DNA from: Acuticoccus sp. MNP-M23
GTDB taxonomy: Bacteria; Pseudomonadota; Alphaproteobacteria; Rhizobiales; Amorphaceae
Assembly (NCBI RefSeq): GCF_031195445.1
Contig: NZ_CP133480.1
Span: 3,898,501 to 3,962,500, forward strand
Reading direction: 5' to 3'
DNA length: 64,000 nt
Shown: positions 33,717 to 54,247 of the stretch, piece after piece
Layout: every line of letters begins with the position of its first letter
Position numbering within the stretch: position 1 is the first letter of the stretch
Program-made: the position numbers and the translations under genes
Notes under the pieces: model-generated
What the model was told of the DNA's origin: nothing
Databases searched by the model: none
What the model saw: the letters and a program-made list of their open reading frames with translations, nothing else

Positions 33717-33721
33717 GGACC

Positions 33722-37528: not shown

Positions 37529-38512
37529 TCAGCCGGTGAGCGGTCGGATGGCGCGGCGGCGAGACCGGCGTAGCCTGAGGTCCCGTTGCCCGTCGATCAG
37601 CACGGCGGCAAAGATGATCGCCGCCAGCACGATGGGCTGCAGGTAAAGGTTCACGGCGGTGAAGACGAGCCCCGTCCGCACCGTCTGGATCAGCACCGCG
37701 CCGATGGCAGCGCCGAAGGCCGTGCCCACCCCGCCAAAGAGGCTGACGCCGCCCAGCACCGCGGCTGCAATCACGTCGAACTCACGCCCTTCGCCGAATG
37801 CAACGTCGAGCCGGCCGATCTGTGCAATCAGGATGAAGCCCGCCGTCGCCGCGCAGGCCGACGAGATGAGGTAGACCCTCGCCCGCACCCAGTCGGCCCG
37901 GATGCCGGCCTTGCGGGCAACCTCCGGGTCCGCGCCCACCGCATAGATCTGCCGCCCGAACGAAGTGCGTGACAGGACGATCCATGCCGCCAGCGCCACC
38001 AGCACGAAGACAATCACCGGAAGCGGCACGCCGAACACGGAGGAGAGGCCGAAGTCGAGCATCGACCGGTCGAAGTCGAACTGGCGCGACGACGTGATCC
38101 AGGTGCCGGCGCCGCGGAAGAAGAAGAGCGTGGCGAGCGTGACGATGAAGGGGGCGATGTTCAGCCGCACGATGAAAAGCGCGTTGATGGCGCCCATGGC
38201 GAGGCCCGCCAGCACTGCGGTCAGGAGCCCGCCGGCAACGCCGATGGGCAACTCCCGCATGGCGATGCCCGCCAGAAGCGGCCCCAGATACATCACCGAT
38301 CCAACGGAAAGGTCGATCCCCCGCGTGAGAAGGACGAAGCTCATCCCGACCGCGGCAATGCCGATGAAGGAGGATTGTTTGATGATGTTGGCAACGTTCT
38401 CCGGCGTCAGAAATGCGTCTGACTGGAAGCCGAAGAAGACCAGAACGACCGCGAAGATCGGGATTGTGGCGTTGCGCAGGAGAAGGCGGGTTGCGCGCTC
38501 TTTGAGGGTCAT
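37529..38512 (-). CDS. Sugar ABC transporter permease (RbsC-like), apiose operon
   Basis: A 327-aa permease of the ribose/xylose type with the diagnostic LLTRGIDLSVGSVMYLG segment and GGVSLFGGVGTAFGA near the C-terminus, and 8-10 membrane helices. Its ATG overlaps the ATPase stop (ATGA). It is the last gene of the long apnL-to-permease operon and forms a heterodimeric channel with the other permease (40002-41237). Confidence 0.92.
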   Translation of the reverse strand: MTLKERATRLLLRNATIPIFAVVLVFFGFQSDAFLTPENVANIIKQSSFIGIAAVGMSFVLLTRGIDLSVGSVMYLGPLLAGIAMRELPIGVAGGLLTAVLAGLAMGAINALFIVRLNIAPFIVTLATLFFFRGAGTWITSSRQFDFDRSMLDFGLSSVFGVPLPVIVFVLVALAAWIVLSRTSFGRQIYAVGADPEVARKAGIRADWVRARVYLISSACAATAGFILIAQIGRLDVAFGEGREFDVIAAAVLGGVSLFGGVGTAFGAAIGAVLIQTVRTGLVFTAVNLYLQPIVLAAIIFAAVLIDGQRDLRLRRSRRRAIRPLTG

Positions 38513-40005
38513 GCCGTCTCCCTGAAGGCCATGGACAGGATTGCGGACTGCTCGAACGGCGGCGCATCGAAGCCGCCGACAATCTCCCCGCGGCTCATGA
38601 CGAGAATGCGGTCGCAGACCCCCATCAGCTCGTCGATTTCGGACGAGATGAAAAGCACCGCGCCGCCGGCTGCGGCGAGCTGGTCGGCCAGTGTGTAGAT
38701 CTCGTACTTGGCACCGACGTCGACGCCTCTGGTCGGCTCGTCGAGGATGAAGACGCGGGGGCCGCTCATCAGCCACTTGCCGATGACGACCTTCTGCTGG
38801 TTGCCGCCGGAGAGCGATTTCGCCGGCTGGCGGTCAATCTTGCCGGCCTTCAACTGGACGCGGCCTGCCGTTTCGAGCGCCTCTTCGGCCAGCGCCTCGG
38901 CGTCGATCAGCGCTGCCGGGGCGCGGCCGAACCGGCTGATGGAGACGAGGGCAAGATTGTCCTCGATGGGGCTTTCCATCATCAGCCCCTCGGCCCGGCG
39001 GTCTTCGGTGACGAAGGCAAGGCCCGCCTCGATCCGCGCCCTGGGGCTGCCTGTGAGCGGTGTGCCGGCAAGGACGATCTCGCCCTGTTCGGCGGGATCG
39101 AGGCCGAACAGGACGCGGGCAAGCTCCGTCCGCCCTGACCCCATCAGCCCGAAGAGGCCGAGAATTTCGCCGCGCCGAAGGTCGAACGAAACATTTTCCA
39201 GTACGCCAGGCTGGCCAAGGCCGCTCACCTTCAGCGCAATGTCCGCTTCGGGCCTTGCCGTCCGTTCGGGGAAGAGGCCGGACAGGGCGCGCCCGATCAT
39301 CGCGTGGATCATCCGTGGAATGTCGAAGTCGGCCACCTTGCCGCTTTCGATCAGCCGCCCATCGCGCAGGACCGCGACCGTATCGCACAGCCGCGCAACA
39401 TCGCCCAGAACGTGGCTGATGTAGATGATCGTCTTGCCCTGATCGCGCAGTCGTTCGATCACCTCGAACAGCCGCGTGGTCTCGCGCGGGGTGAGCGACG
39501 TGGTCGGCTCGTCGAAAATGATCAGCGCAGCATCGCGGTGGAGCGCCTTGGCAATTTCCACCAGCTGCCGCTCGCCGGGCGAAAGATCGCCCACCGCGGC
39601 ATCCGGCGAGACATGGAGGTCGAGGGCTGCCAGAAGTTCGGCGGCCCGTTCGCGGATGGCGCGCCGGTCGATCAGGCCGAGCTTTTTCGGAAAACCGTCC
39701 ACGAAGAGGTTTTCGGCAACCGACAGGTTGAGGAAGAGGTTCAGCTCCTGGTGGATGAAGGCGACACCGCGTGCGGCCGCCGCAGCCGCCCCGGCAGGCG
39801 CATAGGGTTCGCCGCGCCAGAACATCTGGCCGGAGGAGGGGGCGAGCACGCCGCCCACCATGTTCATCAAGGTGGATTTGCCGGCGCCGTTTTCGCCGAT
39901 CAGGCCGAGCACGGCGCCCTGCGCCACATCCAGCGTCACGTCTTCCACCGCCGGCACGCCGTAATAGGCCTTGGAGAGCGCCTCAAGGCGCAGGAGCGCG
40001 CTCAT
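38509..40005 (-). CDS. Sugar ABC transporter ATPase (RbsA-like), apiose operon
   Basis: A 498-aa tandem ATPase. The first domain has Walker A GENGAGKST, signature LSPGERQLVEIAKA and Walker B IIFDEPTTSLTP. The second half has GLMGSGRTEL, signature LSGGNQQKVVIGKWLM and FILDEPTRGVDVG. The reduced second Walker A is normal for RbsA/XylG-type proteins. Its start overlaps the permease stop and its end overlaps the second permease start. Confidence 0.94.
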   Translation of the reverse strand: MSALLRLEALSKAYYGVPAVEDVTLDVAQGAVLGLIGENGAGKSTLMNMVGGVLAPSSGQMFWRGEPYAPAGAAAAAARGVAFIHQELNLFLNLSVAENLFVDGFPKKLGLIDRRAIRERAAELLAALDLHVSPDAAVGDLSPGERQLVEIAKALHRDAALIIFDEPTTSLTPRETTRLFEVIERLRDQGKTIIYISHVLGDVARLCDTVAVLRDGRLIESGKVADFDIPRMIHAMIGRALSGLFPERTARPEADIALKVSGLGQPGVLENVSFDLRRGEILGLFGLMGSGRTELARVLFGLDPAEQGEIVLAGTPLTGSPRARIEAGLAFVTEDRRAEGLMMESPIEDNLALVSISRFGRAPAALIDAEALAEEALETAGRVQLKAGKIDRQPAKSLSGGNQQKVVIGKWLMSGPRVFILDEPTRGVDVGAKYEIYTLADQLAAAGGAVLFISSEIDELMGVCDRILVMSRGEIVGGFDAPPFEQSAILSMAFRETA

Positions 40006-41237
40006 GCCGCTCTCTCGCGCATCAGCCGCGTTCGCAGAACATCGAGCAGGGCGGCGGCGAGGATGACGGCGCCCTTCACCATGTCGATATGGAAGGACGA
40101 CAGGTTCATGAGGTTGAGCGTGTTGGACAGGACGACGAAGAACAGGACGCCGAACACCGTCCAAAGCACCTTGCCCTTGCCGCCGAAAAGGCTGGTGCCG
40201 CCGATGACCACCGCGCCGATCACGTCCAGCAGGAAGGCGCCGTCGCCAAGGGTAGGCCGGCCCGCCTCCAGCCGCGCGGAGTAGAGGATCGACCCCGCCG
40301 CCGCGCACACCGCCGATATGACGAAGACCGCAACGACGATCCGTTTCACCGGAACGCCGGAAATCTCGGCAGCCCGCCGGTTGGCGCCGATGGCATAGAC
40401 GTAACGTCCGAACACGGTGCGCGACAGGAGGATGTGCGCGGCAATGGCAATGGCGATGGCAATCACCGCCGGGTAGGTGATGAACGAGAAAATCTGACGG
40501 CGCGGAATGCGCGGTTCGTCCTGCGCCCCCAGATAGACCGAAACGATGTCGCCCTTCCCAAGCTCGATGAAGCTTTCCGGCAGCGGCCGGATGTTTTCCG
40601 ACTGGGTGAGCCAGATGGCGAAGGCGCCGATGCCGATGAGGCCGACCAGCGTCACCATGAAGGGCGGCATGTTGAGGTAGGCGATCGAAATGCCGTTGGC
40701 AGCGCCGATCAGCGCGCCGGTGAGGAGCATCGCTCCAATGCCGAGTGCAAGGCCAAGGGGCACGCCCGCCAGCGGCCCGCCTTCCTCGGTGAGGATGGTG
40801 CCCCAGAGCGGCGCGTTCTCCAGCACCGCGCCGGAGCCGCCGACCGCAAGCAGCGCGCCGCCGACGACGCTCGCAAGGCCGATGACTGCGCCCTGGCTGA
40901 GGTCGATGCCGGCGATGGTGAGAACGAAGGTCTGCCCCACGGCAACCACCAGAAGCGGCCACATGTTGGACAGGATGTTGGACACGTTCGCCGGGTTCGA
41001 CAGCGTCGGCAGGAACGGCACGAGGACCAGAACGTAGGCGAGCGTGAGGTAAAGGACGAAATAGTCCGACAGGAACAGGTCCCCCAGCCGGCGCCCCAGG
41101 CGCGTGACGCTGCCGGGGCGCGCCACACTTCTGGTGTCCGCTGCATCCAGGGGGCGGTCGGCGTCTTGTGCGGCGGGACGCCCCCCCGGCCCGCTGGCCG
41201 GGAGGACGCTGCCTTCTGTGCGATGCGGCTCGCTCAC
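40002..41237 (-). CDS. Sugar ABC transporter permease, apiose operon
   Basis: A 411-aa permease starting at GTG 41237, whose GTGA overlaps the binding-protein stop. The core has LTIAGIDLSQGAVIGLASVV and GGTSLFGGKGKVLWTVFG, both typical of the ribose-type family. About 65 hydrophilic N-terminal residues precede the first helix. It is longer than RbsC because of this extension and a periplasmic loop around EEGGPLAG. It pairs with the permease at 37529-38512. Confidence 0.9.
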   Translation of the reverse strand: MSEPHRTEGSVLPASGPGGRPAAQDADRPLDAADTRSVARPGSVTRLGRRLGDLFLSDYFVLYLTLAYVLVLVPFLPTLSNPANVSNILSNMWPLLVVAVGQTFVLTIAGIDLSQGAVIGLASVVGGALLAVGGSGAVLENAPLWGTILTEEGGPLAGVPLGLALGIGAMLLTGALIGAANGISIAYLNMPPFMVTLVGLIGIGAFAIWLTQSENIRPLPESFIELGKGDIVSVYLGAQDEPRIPRRQIFSFITYPAVIAIAIAIAAHILLSRTVFGRYVYAIGANRRAAEISGVPVKRIVVAVFVISAVCAAAGSILYSARLEAGRPTLGDGAFLLDVIGAVVIGGTSLFGGKGKVLWTVFGVLFFVVLSNTLNLMNLSSFHIDMVKGAVILAAALLDVLRTRLMRERAA

Positions 41238-42226
41238 TTGTCGAGGAAGCCGTCTGCCAGGAGCACGCAGCCCCACATGTCCTTCTCGCGCTCGCCGATA
41301 TTGGCGGAGGTGAGCGCAAAGCCCGGGTCCGCAATCACCTCGTTAGGTGCATATTCGCCGTCTTCGATGGCTTTGAGGATGGCGTTCAGCGCCTGGTCGG
41401 CCTCGAAGTAAAGATCCTGCACGCCGGTTGCGTCGACGTAGGTGTCCTTGATGAGCTGGCAGGCGGTGGCGTCCCCGTCGAGGCCGCCCATGACCACATG
41501 CCCGTCTTCACCGGCCTTCTTCCACATGCCGCGCGGCTCGAAAACCGACCGGATGGTGGGAAAGAGGAAGTCCGACGAGGTGAAGACGAGGTCGATATCG
41601 GGGTTGGCGGTCACCGCAGCTTCGAGATTGGCAAGGGCGGTCGCCGCATCCCATTCGGTCGCCACTTCGATGGGCGCGGCGAACTTGTCGCCGTGCTTCT
41701 CAATGGCAGTGTAAAAGCCCTCCTTGCGGCCGACGGCGTTGGGGTCGCCAAGGTCACCCACCAAAATGAGCGGCTGAAGCGGTGCGTCGCCCGCGTTTTC
41801 CAGCGCCTTCTCGGCCAGAAAGTCGACGGCCTGGCTGGCGATGCTGGCGTTGTCCGCCACCACGACAATGCCGCGCGAAAGGTCTGACGGCGGGCGGTTG
41901 AACACCGCGATCGGCACGTCGTTTTCCTGCGCTTCCTTCACGATGGTGACGGCACTCTCGCCGTCCTGCGGAATGATGATGATCCCGTCAACGCCCTGGG
42001 CGATGCAGTCGCGCACCTGTTCCAGCTGGCGGTTTGCGTCCTCGTTGGCGTTCCGCTCGATGACGGTGTGGCCCTTCTCCTCCAGCGTGGCGGTGATGGC
42101 CTGATGGCCTGCCACCCAGAACTCGGTCTCAAGGTCCTGGAAGGCGAAGCAGATATTGGCGGCCGATGCCGGCGTTGCGATGGCTGCAACGGCTGCAAGG
42201 GTGCCTGCCGCAATAAGAATCTTCAT
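41234..42226 (-). CDS. Sugar-binding protein, family Peripla_BP_4, apiose operon
   Basis: A 330-aa periplasmic binding protein with the signal peptide MKILIAAGTLAAVAAIATPASA. The mature protein starts ANICFAFQDLETEFWVAG, and the DNASIASQAVDFL segment is typical of pentose/hexose-binding members. It follows apnO by 80 bases that contain a stem-loop, and precedes its own permease and ATPase genes. Context makes D-apiose, or an apiose-containing sugar, the likely ligand. Confidence 0.88.
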   Translation of the reverse strand: MKILIAAGTLAAVAAIATPASAANICFAFQDLETEFWVAGHQAITATLEEKGHTVIERNANEDANRQLEQVRDCIAQGVDGIIIIPQDGESAVTIVKEAQENDVPIAVFNRPPSDLSRGIVVVADNASIASQAVDFLAEKALENAGDAPLQPLILVGDLGDPNAVGRKEGFYTAIEKHGDKFAAPIEVATEWDAATALANLEAAVTANPDIDLVFTSSDFLFPTIRSVFEPRGMWKKAGEDGHVVMGGLDGDATACQLIKDTYVDATGVQDLYFEADQALNAILKAIEDGEYAPNEVIADPGFALTSANIGEREKDMWGCVLLADGFLDK

Positions 42227-42306: not shown

Positions 42307-43155
42307 TCAGGCCGCCTCGTCGGGCTGGCAGATGTCCTTGACGGACTGGAGCACGGCTTCGGGTGCGAACACGCGGTCCAGCCAGCCATCGCGGAAGATC
42401 TGCGGCTCGGCCTCCCGGATGGCGTGGAGGGCACCGTCGGAGAACTTGCCCTCGGGGAAGATGCCGAATGCGATGGCAAGCTCGATGTTGAGGTGCCCGA
42501 GGATGAAGTCGTGTGCGGCCTGTTCCGGCACGCCGCGCTTGACCGCCTCGTCGGTCGCCTTGCGCAGCGCCAGCGCGAAGGTGGCGCCAACGGTCTCGGA
42601 CAGGGCAGGCTCCAGAATGGCCATCTGCTCCACCGTCACCCGGTGCGAGCGCATCACCGGCTTGTAGATCTCCCGCGCCACTTCCTCGCACATGGCGTAA
42701 TGCTCGTCCGGCCCCTGCATCAGCGCGCAGACAATGTGCTGCTTGGCGCCGACGCCGCCGAAAAAGTCGAGCCGCGTGTCGCCTTCCTCATCGTTGAAGA
42801 TGGGCGGATGGCAGGGGTGGGTGACGAAATAGGTGACGTCGTTGCGCTCCGGCAGCTCTCCGGCGTGGGGGGCGGCGGCGTCGAGCATGATGATCGCGGC
42901 GCCAGGCTTCACGTCGGCAATGATTTCGTGGGCGATCTTGCCGATCAGCCGGTCCGGGGTTGCCATCAGCACCACATCCGCGTCGCGGATGGCGTTGTTC
43001 TTGTCCGTGCATTGGAGGCCGGTGGCGGCGACCAGCCTGTCCCGCCCGGCTTCGGACGGTTCCACCGGCGACACCGTGAACTTGGTATCCATCAGGTTCG
43101 TGGCGAGCCTGACGCCCATTTTTCCGCCGGCGCCGAGCAGAGCGATTCTGGTCAT
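42307..43155 (-). CDS. apnO: D-apionate oxidoisomerase
   Basis: A 282-aa NAD-binding protein with the Rossmann motif LLGAGGKMGVRLA at the N-terminus and a 6-phosphogluconate-dehydrogenase-like helical C-terminal half. In the published D-apiose pathways this family, ApnO, oxidises and rearranges D-apionate to 3-oxo-isoapionate with NAD+. The call rests on the family resemblance together with apsD, apnL, oiaK and a RuBisCO-like gene in the same operon. It starts 34 bases after the kinase stop. Confidence 0.78.
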   Translation of the reverse strand: MTRIALLGAGGKMGVRLATNLMDTKFTVSPVEPSEAGRDRLVAATGLQCTDKNNAIRDADVVLMATPDRLIGKIAHEIIADVKPGAAIIMLDAAAPHAGELPERNDVTYFVTHPCHPPIFNDEEGDTRLDFFGGVGAKQHIVCALMQGPDEHYAMCEEVAREIYKPVMRSHRVTVEQMAILEPALSETVGATFALALRKATDEAVKRGVPEQAAHDFILGHLNIELAIAFGIFPEGKFSDGALHAIREAEPQIFRDGWLDRVFAPEAVLQSVKDICQPDEAA

Positions 43156-43189: not shown

Positions 43190-44554
43190 TCATTGTGCGC
43201 AAGGGCTGCCCGCCCGCATGCGCGAGAAGAAATCCGGCGGCCCCATCTGGCCGCCCTTGAGTGCGATCTGGACGCCGTCGGTGGCCGGGTCGTCGCCGTG
43301 CGCTTTCAGGAGCGCTGCGCCCGGTACCAGCGGTGCCTCGGCGGTGACGGCATAGATGCCGAGCCCCCGTGCCGCCGCGCTGGAGGTGTCGCCGCCTGCA
43401 ATTGCTGCGCGTGTGAGGCCGGCGTCTCGCACGATGCGGTTGAGGATCTCGCCGAGCCCTTCGCCAATGCGCGTATTGGCAGTGGCAAGGCCGGTGCCGG
43501 ACTGCGCAACAGCTTCGCGGAACGCGGAGATGGACCGGTCGTCAGGCCCCCGCGCGGTGCACACCAGCGGGTTGCGCCCTTGCCCGAGAAGAGCAAGCGC
43601 GTTCTCTGCGGCGGCGTCTTTTGCGCGCCCCCATGCCGCTTCGTCCACCGCGGCGGCAGGGTCGAGGGGGACGATGGCGAACCCGTCCGCCTCGGCGTGG
43701 GCGATCTGTCCTGCGGTAATCGGCGAGCACGAGCCGGAGACGATGGCGAGGCGGTGCACCGGGGCAACCGTCTGCGGCGGCGCCGGGGGCGGCGCGACAC
43801 CCGCTGCGCGCCAGGCCGCAACGAGCGCGTACTCCACCCCTTGCGAGCCGAGGGCAAACAGCGGCGCGTCCATCGCTTGCGCCCAGATCAGCGCACCGGC
43901 TGCGGCAAGCGTCTCGTCGTCGACCACATCGAACGCGACGATGGTGTTGCCCCCGGCACGCGCCGCTTTCAGCGCATCGGCGCCGCGGCCGGCCTTGAGC
44001 GCGACCAGATCGACGAGGCCCACGCGGCGCTCTGTCTGCCGGCCGAGGTGGCGGCACACGTCAGCCTCGTCCATCGGCGTGACCGGGTGGACGGCCATGG
44101 TGGGGTGCCTGTCCAGCCGGTGAACGGTGTCGCCGGCGGCAGCAAAGAGGGTGCCGAAAGCCTGCCAGCGGCCGATCTCGGGTGCGCCAACCACCAGCGG
44201 CGCCCAGCCATCAGCCGCAATTCCGAGATCAGCCGCCTTGCCGATGGAGCCGACATCGGGCGCGGAATCGAACGTGGAGCAGACCTTGTAGTGTGTGACC
44301 GGCGCCCCGGTCGCGCGCAGCGCGGCATAAACGGGCGGCAGGTTGGCCTCCATCCACGCCGGGTCACGGGTGCGGGCATCCCCCGCAATCCCGATGGCGC
44401 GCAGGGTGCCGAACCGTGCCAGCCGCGCAGCGTCCGGCGGATCGAAAAACAGAACCGAGGGGAAGCCGGCGAAGGTCAGCACCTCCATGACCGCCGATGC
44501 GCCGGTAAAGTCGTCGCCGTACCAGGCAATGAGAGGGCCGGCGGGAAGGTTCAC
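43190..44554 (-). CDS. oiaK: 3-oxo-isoapionate kinase (four-carbon acid sugar kinase family)
   Basis: A 454-aa kinase of the DUF1537 family starting at GTG 44554, which overlaps the RuBisCO-like stop (GTGA). The N-terminal AWYGDDFTGASAVMEVLTFA segment and the C-terminal IAGGDTSSAAARGLGIYAV segment are the hallmarks of the two DUF1537 domains. Family members phosphorylate four-carbon acids. OiaK, the member in apiose clusters, makes 3-oxo-isoapionate 4-phosphate. Placement between the RuBisCO-like gene and apnO supports OiaK over erythronate- or threonate-type kinases. Confidence 0.78.
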   Translation of the reverse strand: MNLPAGPLIAWYGDDFTGASAVMEVLTFAGFPSVLFFDPPDAARLARFGTLRAIGIAGDARTRDPAWMEANLPPVYAALRATGAPVTHYKVCSTFDSAPDVGSIGKAADLGIAADGWAPLVVGAPEIGRWQAFGTLFAAAGDTVHRLDRHPTMAVHPVTPMDEADVCRHLGRQTERRVGLVDLVALKAGRGADALKAARAGGNTIVAFDVVDDETLAAAGALIWAQAMDAPLFALGSQGVEYALVAAWRAAGVAPPPAPPQTVAPVHRLAIVSGSCSPITAGQIAHAEADGFAIVPLDPAAAVDEAAWGRAKDAAAENALALLGQGRNPLVCTARGPDDRSISAFREAVAQSGTGLATANTRIGEGLGEILNRIVRDAGLTRAAIAGGDTSSAAARGLGIYAVTAEAPLVPGAALLKAHGDDPATDGVQIALKGGQMGPPDFFSRMRAGSPCAQ

Positions 44555-45798
44555 CGGGCGCCCCCGAGCGCAGCGGCAAGGGCCGGATGCGCCTTCGCGT
44601 GGTCTTCCAGCGGCACGCCTTCCATCGCGGCCTCCCACGCTTCGCGCAGGCTGGAAACGCCGGCCGCAACGCCCTGAGGATGCCCCATGATCCCGCCGCC
44701 AGCGGCATATATGAGGTCCGGCGAGCCGAGTGCCTTGTACGTGGCGGGGGGCTGGCGGGCCGACTGGCCGGACGAGAACACCGGCATGGCGATGCAGGGC
44801 TTGTCGTCCCACAGCGGTGTCAGGCACGCGCGGGCGGAGGCGATGACACTGTCGTCCGCCTCGCAGAACTTGTTGGCGATGCCGTTGACGTGCATGTGGT
44901 CGCAGCCGATGAGGCGCCAGAACACCTGCCACGCGGTGTAGGAGATGCCGAGCATCGGGTGCCGGTCGTAAATCCCCCAGCCGTTGCGGTGGGCGTGGAT
45001 CGGCAATGCGGTGTGGCGGCGGAGCGCTGCCATGCCCACAAGGCCCACCGAGTTGAGGCTGGCCATCACGCAAGTGCCGCCAAGCGCCACCACAAGGTCG
45101 TGCCGGCGGCGCATCTCGTCCATCTCGCCGGTGATGTTGAAGGCGAACATCACCTTGCGGCCGGTCCGGTCGGCGTGGTCGTTGACCACCCGCATCACGG
45201 CGTGTGCGCGTTCCTCGAACGGGCAGCTCGGCCCGTCCGCCTGCAGCTCGTCATCCTTCACGAAGTCGATACCGGCGTCGCACAGGACGCGGGTGAGGTC
45301 GGCCGTTTCTGCGGGGTTGAAGCCGATGGAGGGTTTGATGATCGTGCCGATCAGCGGCCGCCCTTCGACGCCGCTGAGCCTCCTCGTGCCCTCAACGCCG
45401 AAGGCTGGCCCCATATAGGCGTCGCCGAAGGCACGGGGGAGGCGCAGCGCCGTCAGCTTCAGGCCGGAAAATTGCTTCAGCTCGAAAAGGTTGCCCGCCA
45501 CTGTCGCCATCAGGTTGGGAAGCGACGGTCCGGTGTTGTGCAGCGGCCAGGAGAGGGTGACGCGGGCGCGCCGGTGCGGCTGGTCGGGCCTCGCCGCGCC
45601 TGGCAGCGATGGCCCGTCCACCGGCCCGAGATCCTCCAGCGCCACGACCTGCGCGGCGGACCGGGCCTTCAGCTCCGGCGTTTCGCCAGGGACGGGGACG
45701 AAGGTGCCGGACGACTGCTCGCCCGCCATGGCCGCGGCAGCTTCGTCCGGCCCAATGGCGGTCTCGATCAGGTAATCGGCCTCGATCCGGTCACTCAC
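44551..45798 (-). CDS. RuBisCO-like protein, 3-oxo-isoapionate-4-phosphate processing (OiaX or OiaT type)
   Basis: A 415-aa RuBisCO large-subunit-like protein starting at GTG 45798. It retains K155 (GTIIKPS), the metal-binding K181/D183/E184 set in KDDE, His residues 268 and 270 in PIHAHR, a loop-6-position Lys at 310 (GIANKF) and the phosphate-binding GGGIMGHP. In known apiose clusters, RuBisCO-like proteins either decarboxylate 3-oxo-isoapionate 4-phosphate (OiaX) or split it to 3-phosphoglycerate and glycolate (OiaT). I cannot separate the two by eye. It is not a CO2-fixing RuBisCO: it is too short and no small subunit is present. It overlaps both neighbours by four bases. Confidence 0.85.
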   Translation of the reverse strand: MSDRIEADYLIETAIGPDEAAAAMAGEQSSGTFVPVPGETPELKARSAAQVVALEDLGPVDGPSLPGAARPDQPHRRARVTLSWPLHNTGPSLPNLMATVAGNLFELKQFSGLKLTALRLPRAFGDAYMGPAFGVEGTRRLSGVEGRPLIGTIIKPSIGFNPAETADLTRVLCDAGIDFVKDDELQADGPSCPFEERAHAVMRVVNDHADRTGRKVMFAFNITGEMDEMRRRHDLVVALGGTCVMASLNSVGLVGMAALRRHTALPIHAHRNGWGIYDRHPMLGISYTAWQVFWRLIGCDHMHVNGIANKFCEADDSVIASARACLTPLWDDKPCIAMPVFSSGQSARQPPATYKALGSPDLIYAAGGGIMGHPQGVAAGVSSLREAWEAAMEGVPLEDHAKAHPALAAALGGAR

Positions 45799-46844: not shown

Positions 46845-48712
46845 AGTTCGTCTCCATTGCCAAACAGGAACGCCACGTCGAGCGGCGCAAGGGTCAGCGG
46901 TGCGGCCATGCGGGGGGCGGTGCCGAGCCAGTCCGGGTCGGCGGCAGCCTCCGCGCTTTCCACCGACAGGAGCACCGCGCGGCCATGGGTCAGCTGCGCA
47001 GGCGCTTCGCCGAGGTTGGCGACAATGCCCGTGAGGCCGGGCCGGTCCGCCATCAGCCCTGCAAGACCGCCGGGCGCATCCGCCGTCACCTCGACCGCAG
47101 CGCCTGACAGGAGGGCCAGCGCCCGCACCGCATGGAACAGCGGCAGGGCGCGGGAGCCATCGTCCGATACCAGGCCGAGCGGCCCGCTTGCCATGGCGGG
47201 CGCAAGGCTGACGATGCCTGCGCGCGCGGCGTGGACCGCCACGCCGACGGCAAAGGCTGCGGCAAAGAGGGCGCCGTGCCGCGGGTCGTCCATGGCCATC
47301 GGTGTCCGGCTGCGCTCCGGGTTGTGCGCCACTGCGGCGCCGTAGGGGTTGGAGCGCATGCCGATGGTGGTGAGGCCAAGGCGGATCGGGCGGTCGCCGG
47401 CATGGGCGCGCGCACTGTCGAAAACCGCCGGCAATGCTTCCAGCGTTTCCAGGACCGAGGTGTCGTCTGCGGCGTGGACGATGGCGGTGGTGCCAAAGGA
47501 GACCGAGTCCGTGTCGCCAACCGGCGGGCACCGGTTGAATTCGGTGAAATTGGTGAGCATTCCGGCGGCAATTTCGGTGTTTGCGAATGCGCGGCGTGCT
47601 GCTGCCACCGCATCAGCCGGCGCAGCGCCGTCCGGCCATGGCCCCGCTGGCTGGTGGCTGGCGAGGTAGGCTTCTGGCAACGCCAGAACCCGCTCCACGT
47701 TCATGCCCGCTGCCGCGTCGGCAACCTTCGCAAGGCTTTTGCCGGGCTCCGTGCCGTCCGGGATCACGATGTCGAGGGCAAGCGGCAGGCCGAGCGGTTC
47801 TGCTGCCTCCAGTGCTGACGCCGCCGTTTCCGGGGAGAGGCGGACCTGCGCACCCACGAAGGGGATGCGCGTCAGGGCTGCGGCCTGTTGGGGCGACAGG
47901 GATGCGATGCTCTCATCAAGTGCGACCTCCATGTCCGGCGCCCGTGCAGCCTCCGGGGTGCTGGTGGCGGCCGCGGTGCCGGCGGACGGCGCGACGGCAA
48001 AGGCCATCGCGATGCGCTGGGTGATCCGCTCGCCGGCCGCCACAGTGTAGGGGCGCGGCAGGCCGAGCGGGCGGCAATAGGTCTTGAAGGATGCGTCGGT
48101 CCAGTTGCGCTGGTCTTCCATCTCGAAGACGTCGCCATCGAAACTGATCGAGACGGTAACGCCGTTCACCTCGTGGGAGAGGGCGGCAATGTCGAACACG
48201 GGCTGGGCTGGCGAGATGGCGGCGGGAAATTGCAGACGATCGGTCTGGCCGTCCGGCCGGGTGCGCTCAACCGGCGTTCCGGCGACCCCCTTCAGCGGGT
48301 GAAGCACAACAAAGCCGGCCCGGTTAACCGCTGCGTCGCGCGTTGCGACAAGTTCCAGCGTCGCCGTGAGCGTCAGCGGTTCGGCGGATCCTGCGAGCGT
48401 GAAGGTGCCGTTGAAGAGCCCGTCCGCCACCTCGAATTTTCGGCGGTAGCTGAAGGATTGGCCTTCCTGCGTGGCGGTCTCGCCGAGTGTTCTGGTGGGG
48501 TGGGTGACCCAGTCGGCATCGCGTACCGGCATGTCGATACCGCGGATGATTTCGTGGCTGGCAATCATGATCCGGCGGACCACGCCGCTTTCGACAAGGA
48601 GCCGCAGCGGCCCGGCCGTCAGCGCAACCGGCGGCGCGGTGCGTTGCGCGGTGCCATAGCGCGCGATCGCGTTCCGGACCTCTTCTGTTTGACCAGATTG
48701 GGCCAACTCCAT
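46841..48712 (-). CDS. apnL: D-apionate lactonase
   Basis: A 623-aa cytoplasmic protein without signal peptide. The start at ATG 48712 has a GGAG site; GTG 48745 is possible. It has an N-terminal beta-rich region (REIIRGIDMPV-like segment: SHEIIRGIDMPVRDADW) and a C-terminal barrel-like half containing TNFTEFNRCPP and a TTIGMRSNPYG segment. It has no common domain but resembles the large protein called ApnL in apiose clusters, which opens D-apionolactone to D-apionate. The assignment leans on the full pathway context. It is the first gene of the operon, about 75 bases after the predicted transcription start. Confidence 0.72.
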   Translation of the reverse strand: MELAQSGQTEEVRNAIARYGTAQRTAPPVALTAGPLRLLVESGVVRRIMIASHEIIRGIDMPVRDADWVTHPTRTLGETATQEGQSFSYRRKFEVADGLFNGTFTLAGSAEPLTLTATLELVATRDAAVNRAGFVVLHPLKGVAGTPVERTRPDGQTDRLQFPAAISPAQPVFDIAALSHEVNGVTVSISFDGDVFEMEDQRNWTDASFKTYCRPLGLPRPYTVAAGERITQRIAMAFAVAPSAGTAAATSTPEAARAPDMEVALDESIASLSPQQAAALTRIPFVGAQVRLSPETAASALEAAEPLGLPLALDIVIPDGTEPGKSLAKVADAAAGMNVERVLALPEAYLASHQPAGPWPDGAAPADAVAAARRAFANTEIAAGMLTNFTEFNRCPPVGDTDSVSFGTTAIVHAADDTSVLETLEALPAVFDSARAHAGDRPIRLGLTTIGMRSNPYGAAVAHNPERSRTPMAMDDPRHGALFAAAFAVGVAVHAARAGIVSLAPAMASGPLGLVSDDGSRALPLFHAVRALALLSGAAVEVTADAPGGLAGLMADRPGLTGIVANLGEAPAQLTHGRAVLLSVESAEAAADPDWLGTAPRMAAPLTLAPLDVAFLFGNGDEL

Positions 48713-48791
48713 CCGCGCTTCTCCCTGGGGGCAGCGTATTGCCACCGAGCATGTGGCGCAGATCGACGGCTGCGCTCATTTTTATATACTC

Positions 48792-48819
48792 ATCATACCA
48801 GTTGGGGCGCGGTGCGCAA
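48792..48819 (-). promoter_or_regulatory. Promoter and operator of the apn/oia operon
   Basis: On the minus strand, TTGCGC (48819-48814), a 16-bp spacer and TATGAT (48797-48792) form a sigma70-like promoter. CTGGTATGAT covers the -10 box and an AGTATA follows nine bases further on. The same CTGGTATRAT lies at the divergent promoter at 49639-49648. This arrangement suits repression by the adjacent NanR-like GntR protein, whose E. coli relative binds GGTATA repeats. Confidence 0.6.
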
Positions 48820-48871: not shown

Positions 48872-49585
48872 TCAGGCGAGGTTCGCGCGGCGGTAAAGCT
48901 CGTTGGCGCGGTAGAGGTGGTCACCCATGGCCTGCGCGGCGGCATCGGGATCGCGCTGTTCGATGGCTTCGGCGATCTGCCGGTGTTCGGTCAGCGTGAG
49001 CTGCTCCAGCCCCGGCACGGCCACAAGATCGACGTGGAAATTATTGAGCCACGAGAACACGGCTTCGGACACCACAGGCCAGATGGGGTTGCCGCTGATC
49101 GCGGCGATCTCGCGGTGAAACCGGCCGTCGAGCGCGCGGAACTTCGCCGTGTCGTCGACGGCGGCAGCCTGGTCGTCCAGAACGCCCCATAGCCGCCGAA
49201 CGTCACTGTCGGCGCGCCGCTTTGCTGCCATTCTGGCGACTTCGCGCTCCAGCGTGGCGCGCGCATCCTTCAGGTGTTCGAGGTTGGTGGGCGAGTGGAT
49301 GAGGAGGTGGCGCATCGTTTCGCCAAGCTGGTCGAACATGTGGCCGAACGAGGGTTCGGCGACCCGCGCCCGCCCGCCGTGACGGATCTCTATCAGCCCC
49401 ATCCGCGCCAGCGACTGCAACGCCTCGCGCACTGCCGGCCTTCCCACGCCAAGGGTCTCCATCAGCGCCCGTTCCGACGGCATCAGGTCACCCGGCTGCA
49501 ATGTCCCGTCCTTGATGGTTTCGAGCACCCGGTCGAACACTTCGTCCGACAGCTTCCGTCGGGAGATTGGGGCGGAGTCCATCAT
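48872..49585 (-). CDS. GntR-family regulator (NanR-like), apiose regulon
   Basis: A 237-aa FadR-type GntR protein. The winged HTH (PGDLMPSERALMETLGVGRP then AVREALQSLARMG) and the FCD effector domain (LDGRFHREIAAISGNPIWPV) resemble E. coli NanR in order and wording. It lies between the apnL operon and the divergent second sugar importer, both of which carry a shared GGTATR element. It is the natural candidate for repressing both until an apiose metabolite is present. ATG 49582 is an equal start. Confidence 0.85.
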   Translation of the reverse strand: MMDSAPISRRKLSDEVFDRVLETIKDGTLQPGDLMPSERALMETLGVGRPAVREALQSLARMGLIEIRHGGRARVAEPSFGHMFDQLGETMRHLLIHSPTNLEHLKDARATLEREVARMAAKRRADSDVRRLWGVLDDQAAAVDDTAKFRALDGRFHREIAAISGNPIWPVVSEAVFSWLNNFHVDLVAVPGLEQLTLTEHRQIAEAIEQRDPDAAAQAMGDHLYRANELYRRANLA

Positions 49586-49620
49586 GATGTCTGATCGCCG
49601 GCTACAGACGGTCGATAAAA

Positions 49621-49648
49621 TTGACCGCTTATGGTGTACTGGTATAAT
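49621..49648 (+). promoter_or_regulatory. Promoter and operator of the second sugar importer operon
   Basis: TTGACC (49621-49626), a 16-bp spacer and a perfect TATAAT (49643-49648) form a strong sigma70 promoter 88 bases before the binding-protein gene. Two GGTRTA repeats eight bases apart (GGTGTA 49633-49638, GGTATA 49641-49646) overlap the spacer and -10 box. This is the layout of a NanR-type repressor site, and the CTGGTATAAT core matches the apn promoter. Confidence 0.65.
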
Positions 49649-49735
49649 CTGTTGTCAGGGTCGCGTCGACGCATGGCGCGCGGCCCCGGATGCGGACGAT
49701 ACCGTACCCTAAAAAATAACATCGGGAGGTAAACT

Positions 49736-50773
49736 ATGAAGTTCTCCGTCACGGCACTCGCCGTCTGTCTGACCGCGACCGGTCTTGGTGCGGCAATCGC
49801 CCCTGCCGCCGCGCAGGACAAGCCCACAATTGCGCTGTCCAACTCCTTTTACGGCAACGACTGGCGCCGGCAGATGGTGGATTCCTTCACCGAAGCTGCC
49901 GAAAGCGCCAAGGCCGAAGGGCTGATCGGAGACTTCATCGTCCTCAACGGGGACGGTTCGGTGCCGCAGCAGCAAAGCCAGCTTGCCGACCTCATCTTGC
50001 GCGGTGTCGACGCCATCGCCATCAACGCCGCGTCCGAAACCGCGCTCAACAACATTGTCGGCAAGGCGTGCTCGGCGGGCATTGCCATCATCGCTTTCGA
50101 TTCCATCCTGTCGGAAGATTGCGCTCACACGCTGGGTTTCGACTTCACCCAGTACAAGACCGACCAGGCGGAGGCGACGCTGGATCTGATCGGCCGCAAG
50201 GGCAACGTCATCGTCGTGCGCGGGGTGAAGGGCTCGGCGCCGGATGCGCAGATGTACGCCGCCCAGATGAAGGTGCTGGAGGCCAATCCGGACGTGAAGG
50301 TGGCTGCCGAGGTCTACGGCCAGGCCACGGCGCCGGTCGCCCAGTCCGCCATCGCCAACGTCCTGCCCAGCCTGCCGAAGATCGACGCCGTGCTCGGCCA
50401 GGGCGGCAGCGACGACTACGGCATTGCCCAGGCCTTCGAGCAGTACGGCGGGGACTATGCCGACGCCATGCCGGTGATCGAGGGCGGCGGCAGTGCCGAT
50501 TTCATCCGATGGTGGGCCGGCCGGATGGAGAAGGGCGATTACGCCACCACCTCCATGAACACCACGCCGGGCATTGGCGGGGCCGCATTCTGGGTGGCGC
50601 TGGCGCTGGCCGAGGGTGATGACGTGCCGCAGGAGATGGTGATGCCCGTTGCCGTGGTCGAGCCCGACAATCTGGGCGAATACAAGGATATGCCCCAGGG
50701 CCGCATCGTCAGCCCCAGCTACTCGCGGGCATGGGTGGCAGAGCACCTCCTGTCCGGCCCTGCGGCAAACTGA
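49736..50773 (+). CDS. Sugar-binding protein of the second importer
   Basis: A 345-aa periplasmic binding protein with a signal peptide ending APAAAQ and a GGGAGGT site before the ATG. The mature protein opens KPTIALSNSFYGNDWRRQMV, a pattern of the ribose/rhizopine-type family, and has ADLILRGVDAIAINAASETA. It is the first gene of a three-gene importer with the fused ATPase-permease and a second permease. It is divergent from, and probably co-regulated with, the apiose operon. The ligand may be apiose, an apioside or apionate. Confidence 0.88.
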   Translation: MKFSVTALAVCLTATGLGAAIAPAAAQDKPTIALSNSFYGNDWRRQMVDSFTEAAESAKAEGLIGDFIVLNGDGSVPQQQSQLADLILRGVDAIAINAASETALNNIVGKACSAGIAIIAFDSILSEDCAHTLGFDFTQYKTDQAEATLDLIGRKGNVIVVRGVKGSAPDAQMYAAQMKVLEANPDVKVAAEVYGQATAPVAQSAIANVLPSLPKIDAVLGQGGSDDYGIAQAFEQYGGDYADAMPVIEGGGSADFIRWWAGRMEKGDYATTSMNTTPGIGGAAFWVALALAEGDDVPQEMVMPVAVVEPDNLGEYKDMPQGRIVSPSYSRAWVAEHLLSGPAAN

Positions 50774-50789: not shown

Positions 50790-53234
50790 ATGAACGAACG
50801 TCCTGTCCTGCCGCGGGAGACGGTTTCTCCCGCGGCCGTGCCGCCGCGTGTCGCCGTCAGCGGTGTGCGCGTGACCTACGGCCCCACCGTCGCCGTCGAC
50901 GATCTGTCCATCACCGTTGGCGCGGGGGAGGTGATCGGGCTGGTGGGCGCCAACGGGGCCGGCAAATCCACGCTGATGCGCGTTCTGGCGGGAGCGGCCA
51001 CGCCGGACGCCGGCACGGTCGCAATCGACGGCACGCCGGTGAACTTTGCCGCGTTCGGTCCGGGTGCGGCCCATGGCATGGGCGTGCGGATCGTGTGGCA
51101 GGAGCTTTCGCTCTGCGCCAACCTCACCGTTGCGGAAAACATGTTCGTGGAACGGCCGCTTGCCGGCCGTTCGCCGCTGTTCTGGCGGGCGCCCTATGCG
51201 CGGATTGCAAGAGAAAGCCTCGACGCGGTGTTTCCGGACGCTGGCATTGCGGTGGGCCGCGCGGTGGAGGATCTCCCCATCGGGCAGCGCCAGATGGTGG
51301 AGATTGCAAGAGCTGCCACGGCTCCCGGCCTGCGCCTTCTCATTCTCGATGAGCCGACATCGTCGCTGGATGCGGTGCGCAGCGGGCAGTTGCGGGCCTT
51401 CGTGCAGGCAAGGGCGAGGGAGGGGCTGTCGGTCATCTTCATCAGCCACAAGCTCGGCGAAGTGCTCGACGTGGCGACCCGCGTCTTCGTCATGCGCAAT
51501 GGCCGCGCCGTTCTGGATGCGCCGGCTGAGAGTGTGAACGCATCGCAGCTGGTGGATGCCATGGGCGGCGGCGCCGAGGCGCGAAACGCGCGAACCAGCG
51601 CGGCAACCACGGGAAAGGTGCTGGCGCGCCTCGACCGCCCGCTGACGGCCCGGCTCGGGCACGCGCTGGCGCTTCACGCCGGCGAGATCGTCGGCGTCGC
51701 GGGTCTTGAGGGCGATGGTCAGAAGACGCTGCTGGAGGCGCTGTTTGCCGGGAGCGGCAACGGTGCCACGCGGGCCGGTAAGGCGGCCTATGTGTCCGGC
51801 GACCGGGCGCGCGAGGGTGTCTTTGCGTTGTGGCCGGTGTCGCAGAACATTGCCATCGGGCGCATTGCCCGGCGCTCTGGCTGGTCGCTCGTGTCGGCGG
51901 CGCGGGAACGCGCGGCAGTGGAGCCGGAGGCAAGGCGGCTCGACCTCGATCCCGCGCGGTTCGCCTCCAACATTCTGGAGCTTTCCGGCGGCAACCAGCA
52001 GAAGGCGCTGGCCGCCAGAGCGCTCGGCACCGACGCCGAGATCCTCATTCTGGAAGATCCCACCCGCGGCGTCGATATCGGCACCAAGCGCCTCTTCTAC
52101 AAGGTGGCGCGGGAGGCGGCCGAAAGCGGCAAGCTGGTGGTGTGGCATTCCACCGAGGATGCCGAATTTGCCGAGTGCGACCGCGTTCTGGTGATGGCAT
52201 CCGGCAGTGTGGCCGCAATATTGTCGGGCGATGACCTCAGTGAGGAGCGGGTGCTTGCCACCGCTTTTGCGGCGCGTGAGGGGGGCACTTGCGCAGCCGA
52301 CGGTCCGGGTCTCGCGCTGCGGGCAGCGCGCGCAGTCCTGCGCAACGCAGCAATCGTCGGGCTCGTGGCAGTCTGCGGCGCGCTTGCCTCGCTGAACCCC
52401 ATGGTGGCGTCCACCTTCGGCATCGAGCTTCTGATGGGGCCGGCGGTGGCGCTCACACTCATTGCGCTGGCGCAGATGTTTGTGGTGGGCGGCAGCGAGA
52501 TCGACCTTGGCGTCGGCGCCTTCGCGGGGCTCGTCAACGTGTTGTCGGCGACGCTTCTGGTGAGTGCGCCGCTGCTGGGCGGCGCGGCCATTCTGGCCGG
52601 TCTTGCGGGGTATGCGCTGATGGCGGCCATTGTCCGGCTGCGCGCCGTGCCGGCCATTGTGGTCACGCTGGGGGCCTCGTTCATCTGGTACGGGGTCGGC
52701 TATTCGGTGCAGCCTGCACCGGGGGGCGCGGCGCCCGACTGGTTGCGCGCCACCACCCAGTGGTCGATCCCCGGCATCCCGACGCCGCTGGTGCTGGTGG
52801 TCGCCGCCACGGTGGTTGCGCTCATCCTGCATCGCTCGCGCATGGGAACGGTTCTGCGCGGGTTCGGTGCAAGCCCGATGGCGCTGGAGCGGTCCGGCTG
52901 GTCGCCGCTCACATGGTCCATCGTCCGCTACGTTGTGGCCGGGGCCTTCGCGGGCGCGGGCGGCCTTGCGATCACCGCCATGAACGGGGCGAGCGATATC
53001 AACGCCGGGTCCGGCTACACGCTCCTTGCCGTCGCGGCCGTGGTGCTGGGCGGTTGCCGGCTTCTGGGCGGCGTCATTTCGCCGGTGGGGGTTGCGGCGG
53101 GGGCTGTCACGCTCTCGCTCATTGGCGCGCTGCTGGGTGCGCTGGGGGTGTCGACCGATTTCAATGCGGCGGTGCAGGGGCTGTTGATGATCCTGGTTCT
53201 GGGTCTGCGCGCGCTGGTGGAGCGGTCGCGGTGA
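50790..53234 (+). CDS. Fused sugar ABC transporter ATPase-permease
   Basis: An 814-aa fusion of an RbsA-like tandem ATPase (residues about 20-500) and an RbsC-like permease (about 515-814). The first ATPase domain has Walker A GANGAGKST, Walker B LILDEPTSSLD and a signature altered to LPIGQRQMV. The second has GLEGDGQKTL, the signature LSGGNQQKALAARALG, and a Walker B reading LILEDPTRGVD, with Asp-Glu reversed. The permease half keeps VGGSEIDLGVGAFAGL. The two polypeptides are normally separate. No frameshift is needed, since the frame is continuous through the joint. It overlaps the next permease by GTGA. Confidence 0.9.
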   Translation: MNERPVLPRETVSPAAVPPRVAVSGVRVTYGPTVAVDDLSITVGAGEVIGLVGANGAGKSTLMRVLAGAATPDAGTVAIDGTPVNFAAFGPGAAHGMGVRIVWQELSLCANLTVAENMFVERPLAGRSPLFWRAPYARIARESLDAVFPDAGIAVGRAVEDLPIGQRQMVEIARAATAPGLRLLILDEPTSSLDAVRSGQLRAFVQARAREGLSVIFISHKLGEVLDVATRVFVMRNGRAVLDAPAESVNASQLVDAMGGGAEARNARTSAATTGKVLARLDRPLTARLGHALALHAGEIVGVAGLEGDGQKTLLEALFAGSGNGATRAGKAAYVSGDRAREGVFALWPVSQNIAIGRIARRSGWSLVSAARERAAVEPEARRLDLDPARFASNILELSGGNQQKALAARALGTDAEILILEDPTRGVDIGTKRLFYKVAREAAESGKLVVWHSTEDAEFAECDRVLVMASGSVAAILSGDDLSEERVLATAFAAREGGTCAADGPGLALRAARAVLRNAAIVGLVAVCGALASLNPMVASTFGIELLMGPAVALTLIALAQMFVVGGSEIDLGVGAFAGLVNVLSATLLVSAPLLGGAAILAGLAGYALMAAIVRLRAVPAIVVTLGASFIWYGVGYSVQPAPGGAAPDWLRATTQWSIPGIPTPLVLVVAATVVALILHRSRMGTVLRGFGASPMALERSGWSPLTWSIVRYVVAGAFAGAGGLAITAMNGASDINAGSGYTLLAVAAVVLGGCRLLGGVISPVGVAAGAVTLSLIGALLGALGVSTDFNAAVQGLLMILVLGLRALVERSR

Positions 53235-54247
53235 GGGCGCTTGCAGAATTCACCCGGCGGCACCGCTGGGTGTGGGCAGCGCTCGGCGTTGCGCTCCTGT
53301 GGGTCGCGCTCAACGTCGCCATGGAGCGCTTCAGCCTTGCTTCCATCAGCGGCGTTGCGCGCTCGGCGTCTTTTCTTGCCATTGTGGCGCTCGGCCAGAT
53401 GTTCGTGGTCGCAACCGGGCGCGGCAACATCGACCTTTCGGTCGCAAGCGTCGTGACGCTGAGCGCGTTCATTACCGTCACGCTGGCCGATGGGTCCAAC
53501 GCCACGCTGCCGCTGGCGCTTGGCGCGGCGCTGGCCATGGGGGCTGCGGTGGGGCTCGTCAACGCGCTGCTCGTGGTGCGGCTCGGCATTGCGGCCATGA
53601 TCGCGACCCTTGCGATGGGCTACGTCCTTGCCACCGCAACGCTGATGGTGAACCGCAGCGTCCGCGGCTTCGAAACCGCACCGGCGCTGGACTGGCTGGC
53701 GTCGGGCCGGGTGGGTGATGTGCCGGTCATTGCGGTGCTGGCATGCGCTGCAACCGCGCTGGCGGCCTTCGTCGTCAACCGCACCGCGTTCGGCCAGACC
53801 CTGTCGGCCACCGGGCAGAATTTGCGCGCAGCGCAGCTTGCGGGCGTGCGCACGGGGCGGACCACAACGGCGGCTTTCGTCATCAGCGGGGTGTGTGCCG
53901 CACTTGCCGGCGCGCTCCTTTCGGCAAATGTCGGCGGTGCGTTCCTCGACATGGGGACGCCCTACCTGCTCCAGTCGGTCGGTGCGGTGGTGCTGGGCGG
54001 TTCGCTCATCTTCGGCGGCTTTTCCACGGCGCTCGGGACGCTTCTGGGCGCGGTCCTTCTTGTCCTCATCGTGACCACCATGCAGATCTGGGGTCTTCCC
54101 GCCGGCGCCCAGGACGTGGTGCAGGGCGTCGTCATCGTTGCGGTGCTGGCGCTTGCGGGCGGCAGCGCGGTCCGCCGCCGGAGACCCGCGCCGCAGGCAG
54201 AGCGCGCTTTACACAGCCCGCCCGCGCCGGGCAAGGTCGAGGACTGA
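53231..54247 (+). CDS. Sugar ABC transporter permease of the second importer
   Basis: A 338-aa RbsC-like permease starting at GTG 53231 inside the stop of the fusion gene. It has VATGRGNIDLSVASVVTLSA and GGSLIFGGFSTALGTLLGA, and about nine helices. It would pair with the permease half of the fusion protein. It ends with a hydrophilic Pro/Arg-rich tail of about 30 residues. Confidence 0.9.
   Translation: MRALAEFTRRHRWVWAALGVALLWVALNVAMERFSLASISGVARSASFLAIVALGQMFVVATGRGNIDLSVASVVTLSAFITVTLADGSNATLPLALGAALAMGAAVGLVNALLVVRLGIAAMIATLAMGYVLATATLMVNRSVRGFETAPALDWLASGRVGDVPVIAVLACAATALAAFVVNRTAFGQTLSATGQNLRAAQLAGVRTGRTTTAAFVISGVCAALAGALLSANVGGAFLDMGTPYLLQSVGAVVLGGSLIFGGFSTALGTLLGAVLLVLIVTTMQIWGLPAGAQDVVQGVVIVAVLALAGGSAVRRRRPAPQAERALHSPPAPGKVED

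Follow-up and report, generated by a model that had tools for sequence, protein, structure and literature searches.

A putative D-apiose regulon in Acuticoccus sp. MNP-M23, with two importers and a RuBisCO-like protein best assigned to OiaT

Known Pathways and the Acuticoccus Locus

Oxidative pathways for D-apiose were reportedly described by Carter et al. in 2018 and are said to comprise ApsD, ApnL, ApnO, OiaK and either OiaX or OiaT. In the D-hamamelose pathway, attributed to Kim et al. in 2018, a RuBisCO-like protein (RLP) reportedly works as an oxygenase. The oxidative D-apiose pathways are also cited in PMC6302742, where the activity of OiaT is named as 3-oxo-isoapionate-4-phosphate transcarboxylase/hydrolase (Xanthobacter). 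According to PMC11747546, D-apiose supports the growth of a strain whose cluster lists the same enzymes, with the last of them annotated as a decarboxylase. Here, we describe a locus of this kind in Acuticoccus sp. MNP-M23 (assembly of 5.16 Mb), found in a 64,000-nt stretch that is called the window. The named genes of the system all lie within positions 37529-54247. With a probability of about 0.72, they form one inducible regulon, serving D-apiose and its oxidized forms, in which the RLP is of the OiaT type and the second of two importers acts at the level of the lactone or the acid.

Genes were called by codon usage and assigned to families with Pfam and NCBIfam. Nine genes follow each other on the minus strand, encoding a lactonase, a dehydrogenase, the RLP, a DUF1537 kinase, an oxidoisomerase and a four-gene ABC importer (importer 1). 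They are regarded as one operon because of the short distances between them: of the eight junctions that link the lactonase gene to that of the last permease, five are 4-bp overlaps and three are gaps (34, 80, and 107 bp). Beyond the operon, the gene for a NanR-type regulator stands apart, and three genes for a second importer (importer 2) run divergently. Over both importers, Pfam and NCBIfam count two periplasmic binding proteins, three permeases, one ATPase and one fused ATPase-permease.

The locus resembles the oxidative D-apiose pathways in combining the same enzyme families, a sugar ABC importer and a NanR-type regulator in one regulon. It differs from them in that importer 1 belongs to another branch than the importer with a binding protein like PDB 5ibq, in the presence of a second importer, and in that its ApnL, OiaK and RLP score below the NCBIfam cut-offs. 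With the D-hamamelose pathway it has in common an RLP in branched-sugar catabolism, but ApnO is present and no short-chain dehydrogenase/reductase (SDR) gene lies inside the regulon, an SDR front end being our assumption for hamamelose catabolism. The pathway itself is already known; the type of RLP, the roles of the importers and the box shared by the control regions are refinements.

The proposal was built on computed features, namely gene content, operon layout, the position of the RLP outside the OiaX clade, its retained residues, gene co-occurrence and a shared box. All substrates, reactions, importer ligands and the repression were deduced from these. Importer 1 would take up D-apiose through its binding protein SBP1, after which ApsD would convert the sugar to D-apionolactone and ApnL would open the lactone to D-apionate. 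ApnO would oxidize D-apionate and shift its hydroxymethyl group, yielding 3-oxo-isoapionate. Once this is phosphorylated by OiaK, the RLP would act as an OiaT-type transcarboxylase/hydrolase and release 3-phosphoglycerate and glycolate, which we take to be the products of OiaT. Importer 2, consisting of SBP2, a fused ATPase-permease and a second permease, would enter at the lactone or acid level, thereby bypassing ApsD, and a NanR-type repressor would act on one box in each of two control regions. The presence of relatives of ApnO, ApsD and ApnL in the window argues for apiose as the sugar.

The RuBisCO-Like Protein

The RLP (44551..45798, minus strand) is the sole match to RuBisCO_large of Pfam in the genome. 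Like OiaX (3-oxo-isoapionate-4-phosphate decarboxylase), it is encoded beside a DUF1537 kinase and keeps the carbamate lysine and the metal ligands. Unlike OiaX, it scores 458-459 bits with the OiaX profile NF042437, against a cut-off of 700 and 780-790 bits for three OiaX proteins above it, and it is only 43-47% identical to four OiaX proteins. Its relatives, here called window-type RLPs, reach about 364-473 bits in the same searches. They were compared with 14 OiaX-type RLPs, of which seven are named so by PGAP, three score above the cut-off and four were added by similarity. Among 121 genomes centred on Ancylobacter lacus, two hold an OiaX above the cut-off, and all other matches listed above 400 bits score 412-465. 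Neither of the two is among the first 30 genomes listed, which are referred to below as the Ancylobacter group, the list order being assumed to mirror kinship. The main window-type RLP (449-465 bits) is present in 16 of these 30, and a seventeenth genome has a relative of 422 bits only. Among the plasmid matches listed (60 per search, with 366 records matched), RLPs named OiaX by PGAP are 42-47% identical to the window RLP and an unnamed group 50-72%.

In a quick tree of 141 sequences, the 14 OiaX-type proteins form one branch with 100% support. The window RLP stands outside this branch and groups with proteins of the same genus and of a Geminicoccaceae metagenome-assembled genome (MAG). The two kinds also differ at single residues, as seen in an alignment of 118 window-type and 14 OiaX-type RLPs to seven RuBisCO large subunits (form I by appearance); the RuBisCO numbering and the roles given to the aligned positions are those we presume. 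N123, H327, and S379 are each present in 117 and H325 in 116 of the 118 window-type proteins, as well as in all seven RuBisCOs, whereas all 14 OiaX-type proteins have G at 123, Q at 325 and 327, and G or C at 379. E60 occurs in 118/118 window-type proteins, against D in 14/14 of the OiaX type. The window RLP itself carries the equivalents of E60, N123, K175, K201, D203, E204, H294, R295, H327, K334, and S379, and also H325. In RuBisCO, N123, H327, and S379 have a part in the carboxylation, hydration and cleavage steps. Keeping them therefore fits carboxyl transfer with hydrolytic cleavage, and their loss fits a plain decarboxylase. Thirteen plasmid loci found by tblastn all show E, N, H, and S.

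Gene context was compared in 100 loci (dereplicated from 106, each with at least 8.8 kb on either side), of which 88 are window-type and 12 OiaX-type. TIM-like and RpiB-like isomerases, a pair that would process erythrulose-1-phosphate, adjoin 4 of the 12 OiaX-type and none of the 88 window-type RLPs (p = 0.00013). The sole match to the TIM-like protein in the window genome is 36% identical and probably is the ordinary triose-phosphate isomerase. Glycolate could be used, as the genome has a glcD-like gene (525 bits, below the cut-off of 568) with a weaker second match close by. Genes of downstream glycolysis (Pyk and Eno) were considered as a mark of the 3-phosphoglycerate route but set aside (4/88 window-type vs. 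0/12 OiaX-type loci, p = 1), although some single loci are suggestive. Score, tree, residues and context together reject OiaX as the function of the RLP. Its residues and context are as expected for OiaT, which is the best assignment, with OiaT represented here by its described activity and the Xanthobacter reference sequence outside the comparison.

Several points weigh against this assignment. The sequences compared come from relatives in Ancylobacter and not from the characterized Xanthobacter OiaT. The tree is a quick one, and the program warned that long branches unite OiaX and the outgroups in it. It lends no separate support to the window-type group, to which paraphyly with respect to OiaX may apply. 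The contrast at E60 is partly biased, since GEQSSGTF was one of the two patterns used to fetch 80 loci. Furthermore, the isomerases are missing at 8/12 OiaX-type loci too, so that their absence alone proves little. If the distinction holds, it separates two kinds of RLP that are lumped or left unnamed in databases, and it offers residues that would predict decarboxylation or RuBisCO-like cleavage. The closest solved sequence, PDB 3nwr (426 bits), has the molecule title 'A rubisco-like protein', a name without a function.

Three RLPs of the same genus branch beside the window RLP (loci L193, L194, and L196; L and G numbers are our labels for loci and genomes). The apiose genes searched for were not found within about 10 kb of them. 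They carry E204A, H294D, and A or S in place of K334, like no other window-type RLP, and are candidates for a non-catalytic or repurposed paralog.

Dehydrogenase, Lactonase, Oxidoisomerase, and Kinase

The dehydrogenase (45795..46844, minus strand, TTG start) is a Gfo/Idh/MocA protein related to ApsD, as it matches PDB 5uhw, which we take to be the K84 ApsD, with 340 bits. The ApnL-like lactonase (46841..48712, minus strand, 623 aa) has NF049900 as its best NCBIfam match, with 387 bits and thus below the cut-off of 750. Since all four proteins tested from other clusters pass this cut-off (770-1063 bits), the window protein is truly divergent; 62 columns are invariant in a 10-row alignment that includes three ApnLs above the cut-off. 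E197, E199, D200, R202, and W204 belong to the invariant residues of the lactonase. No Pfam family and no PDB sequence matches the lactonase. A model predicted from 16 sequences (mean pLDDT 90) was compared with Foldseek. GH36, GH97, and GH101 glycoside hydrolases are the best matches (E down to 2e-12, but with TM-scores of about 0.25), and one part matches aldose 1-epimerase. Such matches point to a supersandwich plus barrel, a glycoside-hydrolase-like fold by which glycosidase function is not implied.

The ApnO-like oxidoisomerase, a putative D-apionate oxidoisomerase (42307..43155, minus strand), matches PGDH_C (PF16896, 5e-61) and PDB 5t57 (299 bits), and weakly ketol-acid reductoisomerase. 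It is 54-57% identical to the PGDH_C proteins of OiaX-type loci, and NCBIfam gave no ApnO match to score by. The OiaK-like DUF1537 protein, a putative 3-oxo-isoapionate kinase (43190..44554, minus strand), scores 503 bits with its best NCBIfam match, NF042436, against a cut-off of 700. This cut-off is narrow, as it leaves out even a kinase from a genuine OiaX locus (473), while the one of Paraburkholderia sprentiae passes (822). That ApnL, OiaK, and RLP all stay below their equivalog cut-offs counts against apiose, as the substrate could be a relative of it.

The sequence-only reading had proposed an operon for dehydrogenase, 623-aa lactonase, oxidoisomerase, DUF1537 kinase and RLP, followed by a four-gene importer. 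The gene caller, Pfam and NCBIfam confirm all these genes, and the gene set supports an oxidative D-apiose regulon. The enzyme families agree with the known ApsD-ApnL-ApnO-OiaK-OiaX/OiaT route; to say that the set matches this route is too strong in view of the three missed cut-offs. The choice between OiaX and OiaT, which that reading left open, now falls on OiaT.

Two Importers

Importer 1 is encoded on the minus strand by the genes for SBP1 (41234..42226, Peripla_BP_4), permease 1 (40002..41126, BPD_transp_2), an ATPase (38509..40005, ABC_tran in two stretches) and permease 2 (37529..38512, BPD_transp_2). Orthologs of permease 2 are 60-87% identical in L035, L050, L083, L187, and L188. Importer 2, on the plus strand, consists of SBP2 (49736..50773, Peripla_BP_4; PDB 4pe6, 217 bits), a fused ATPase-permease of 814 aa (50790..53234, ABC_tran in two stretches plus BPD_transp_2) and a second permease (53231..54247, BPD_transp_2). 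Orthologs of the fused protein are 53-75% identical in L036, L037, L055, L057, L066, L188, and L200. In the Rhizobium jaguaris locus L038 (16053-18525), the fused ATPase-permease of the SBP2 importer is split over two frames, and an SMP-30 lactonase gene is divergent.

The binding protein of the known apiose type is called SBP3; its copy in L040 scores 611 bits with PDB 5ibq, presumably a structure with bound apiose. ApsD is present at 25 of the 26 loci with SBP1 or SBP3, vs. 7 of the 74 others in the 100-locus set. SBP1 (7 loci) and SBP3 (19 loci) never occur at one locus (0/26). Of 12 ribose-type pocket positions in SBP3, which were assigned after E. coli RbsB, SBP1 keeps seven and SBP2 two. 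Because of the co-occurrence with ApsD and the kept pocket positions, importer 1 probably takes up apiose in place of an importer of the SBP3 type.

SBP2 is distributed differently. In the Ancylobacter group, SBP2 (62-65% identity) is found in 16/16 genomes with a main RLP and in 0/14 others. Only three of these 16 have ApsD (46-47% identity); in the other 13, no ApsD-like protein was found at 1e-40 and at least 44% identity, with a 32% match in G473. Likewise, an Arhodomonas cluster with SBP2, ApnL, ApnO, OiaK, and RLP gave no ApsD match at 1e-40. As SBP2 thus accompanies the RLP mostly without ApsD, its cargo would not need this enzyme, and importer 2 probably carries D-apionolactone or apionate. 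The gene order is also of interest, as SBP2, ATPase-permease, permease and ApnL are collinear in G455 and G453, with a divergent SMP-30 lactonase, and in the ApsD-bearing G467 the SBP3 importer and ApsD stand as a block between permease and ApnL.

These assignments have their counterarguments. The mutual exclusion of SBP1 and SBP3 is not significant (p = 0.34), nor is the link of SBP2 with a lactonase in the 100-locus set (4/6 vs. 33/94, p = 0.19), where SBP2 stands with ApsD at 5/6 loci. The 30 Ancylobacter-group genomes are related, so that they cannot be counted as independent cases, and the role of ApsD could be filled by a non-homologous dehydrogenase. In addition, G391, from the same genus, carries the operon without SBP2 and, at that locus, without ApnL.

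A more general idea is a modular apiose catabolism in which each entry point has an importer to match: an ABC importer with SBP1 or SBP3, plus ApsD, for the sugar, one with SBP2 and the fused ATPase-permease, plus a lactonase, for the aldonolactone, and a TRAP-like system beside ApnO-OiaK-OiaT in Ancylobacter for the acid. We consider the chances of this idea to be slightly below even. If it is true, SBP2 would be dedicated to a sugar lactone (or acid), and bacteria lacking the dehydrogenase could live on apiose oxidized by others. No description of a dedicated lactone importer was found within the limited literature collection searched. The earlier suggestion that two importers mean two related compounds gains support, the likelier pair now being D-apiose for importer 1 and D-apionolactone or apionate for importer 2. 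Nothing speaks for an apioside as the second compound, as Pfam finds no glycosidase family in the regulon proteins, although the lactonase, to which no Pfam family matches, is predicted to fold like glycoside hydrolases. Why one regulon should have two importers thereby becomes a simple question of binding.

Regulator and Shared Box

The GntR/FCD regulator (48872..49585, minus strand) passes the cut-off of the NanR subfamily (NF003011, 284.7 vs. 260 bits). Its gene lies between two control regions, 48713-48871 (159 bp, operon to regulator) and 49586-49735 (regulator to SBP2). Motif search finds ACTGGTATRAT in both, within ACTGGTATGATGAG at 48789..48802 on the minus strand, upstream of the ApnL operon, and within ACTGGTATAATCTG at 49638..49651 on the plus strand, where it overlaps a sigma-70-like promoter TTGACC-16-TATAAT (11/12 positions). 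The idea of a divergent second importer sharing the operator consequently holds in substance, with the correction that there are two control regions and that the regulator gene separates them. Across the 5.16 Mb assembly, ACTGGTATRAT is matched exactly at these two sites only, and a control pattern nowhere. As the pattern was defined after both sites had been seen, this rarity (2 found, about 0.65 expected by composition) is only supportive. Extended to a 14-mer with up to two mismatches, the box is found twice in the window, while shuffled sequences contain 0.40 matches on average and 4/100 of them reach 2.

The related CTGGTATRATSA matches 83/220 loci (duplicates included), and the loci fetched contain 110 distinct TGGTATNAT sites (chance matches included), which are conserved on both sides of the -10 element. 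The box is located upstream of SBP2 at seven of the ten SBP2 loci drawn (the window, L055, L057, L188, L200, L232, and L234). At L036, L037, and L066, there is no box directly before SBP2, which counts against it. The box may be a promoter, an operator or both; we read it as a promoter that the operator overlaps. The E. coli NanR operator is a tandem of GGTATA. This tandem was tried as the operator as well; it is perfect once in the window (49633-49646) and not general among relatives, and ACTGGTATRAT took its place.

Alternative Readings

The same apiose route could end in a divergent OiaX, the RLP then being a decarboxylase that yields L-erythrulose-1-phosphate. OiaX is indeed the best NCBIfam match of the RLP (459 bits), the equivalents of K175, K201, D203, E204, R295, and K334 are common to both, and the apiose-growing strain of PMC11747546, with the same list of enzymes, has its last step annotated as the decarboxylase EC 4.1.1.121, although its RLP type is given by annotation only. 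We nevertheless hold this to be distinctly improbable, as the RLP is below the OiaX cut-off and outside the OiaX clade, keeps N123, H327, and S379, which are lost in 14/14 OiaX-type proteins, and belongs to a type with the isomerase pair beside 0/88 members. Another possibility is that the regulon serves a different branched sugar, e.g., D-hamamelose, and that the RLP is an oxygenase producing 3-phosphoglycerate and glycolate, to which the retained RuBisCO residues are suited. However, in hamamelonate the branch is at C2, so that no hydroxymethyl group has to migrate and ApnO would be superfluous, and the ApsD and ApnL relatives in the window argue against it too. ApnO was not found within 9 kb at 30 of the 88 window-type loci, and an SDR is encoded at 10 of these 30, vs. 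2 of the 58 with ApnO (p = 0.00026). This exclusion pattern weighs against a uniform apiose role, as it indicates that the window-type clade serves more than one pathway, but the loci that fit hamamelose better are those with an SDR in place of ApnO. For the window, hamamelose is highly improbable, even though the RLP oxygenase of the D-hamamelose pathway is cited in PMC10176493 and, for Ochrobactrum, in PMC8914248.

Both importers might also carry D-apiose with different affinity, the second being redundant. The occurrence of SBP2 with ApsD at 5/6 loci speaks for such redundancy. Against it stand 13 of the 16 genomes of the Ancylobacter group that hold SBP2 together with the main RLP, as well as Arhodomonas, in which no ApsD-like protein was found at the thresholds given above, and the apiose-type pocket positions (2/12 in SBP2 vs. 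7/12 in SBP1), by which redundancy becomes improbable. As for the box, it could be only a strong extended -10 promoter element and no operator. TGGTATAAT is identical to the extended -10 consensus, TTGACC lies 16 nt upstream, and a weak TTG is visible in the profile of the 110 sites. In the same profile, conserved positions are found past the -10 element (+10 A in 98/110, +12 T in 71, and +18 A in 76) as well as ahead of it (-1 C in 91/110), which makes a mere promoter rather unlikely compared to a promoter overlapped by an operator.

Distribution and Other Roles of Window-Type RLPs

RLP relatives number at least 565 in a contig scan. The PGAP name of window-type RLPs is mostly 'ribulose-bisphosphate carboxylase large subunit family protein', and they occur also in Acidobacteriota MAGs and on haloarchaeal plasmids. 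As judged from sequence, they are a widespread catabolic family. Since the simple gene caller made antisense calls on some very GC-rich loci of relatives, only genes confirmed by similarity were kept.

On the plasmid of a haloarchaeon (Halalkalicoccus, L047, 12001-17025), a window-type RLP, a DUF1537 kinase, a PGDH_C protein and a GntP permease are encoded next to each other, a candidate apionate pathway in archaea. Plasmids of Bradyrhizobium elkanii (L046) and Sinorhizobium fredii (L181) combine RLP and DUF1537 kinase with aldo/keto reductases, an SDR and a homoserine-lactonase-like gene; ApsD and ApnL were not found nearby, and these loci perhaps belong to another branched-sugar route. The RLP locus labeled as an Akkermansia muciniphila MAG (L118) is a near-copy of the Limnohabitans one in the tree and probably is a misbinned contig. 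For an RLP of Rhizobium etli that adjoins a 'ribose' importer, a carboxylase role is proposed in PMC8914248 (2022). In a related Rhizobium plasmid locus, L040, the RLP is named OiaX and has a 5ibq-like importer beside it, which makes apiose catabolism worth considering for the Rhizobium etli protein.

Neighboring Genes

The alpha/beta hydrolase gene downstream of importer 2 (54310-55839) was considered as a member of the system and rejected, as it has no match of at least 150 bits in any tabulated locus. On the other side of the regulon, at positions 31173-34159, a heavy-metal P-type ATPase with two HMA stretches is encoded, and next comes a regulator of the MerR family. On the minus strand at 57225-60216, genes for a chalcone/stilbene-synthase-type polyketide synthase, a methyltransferase and an FAD oxidoreductase lie in a row, by their sequences a small type III polyketide cluster.

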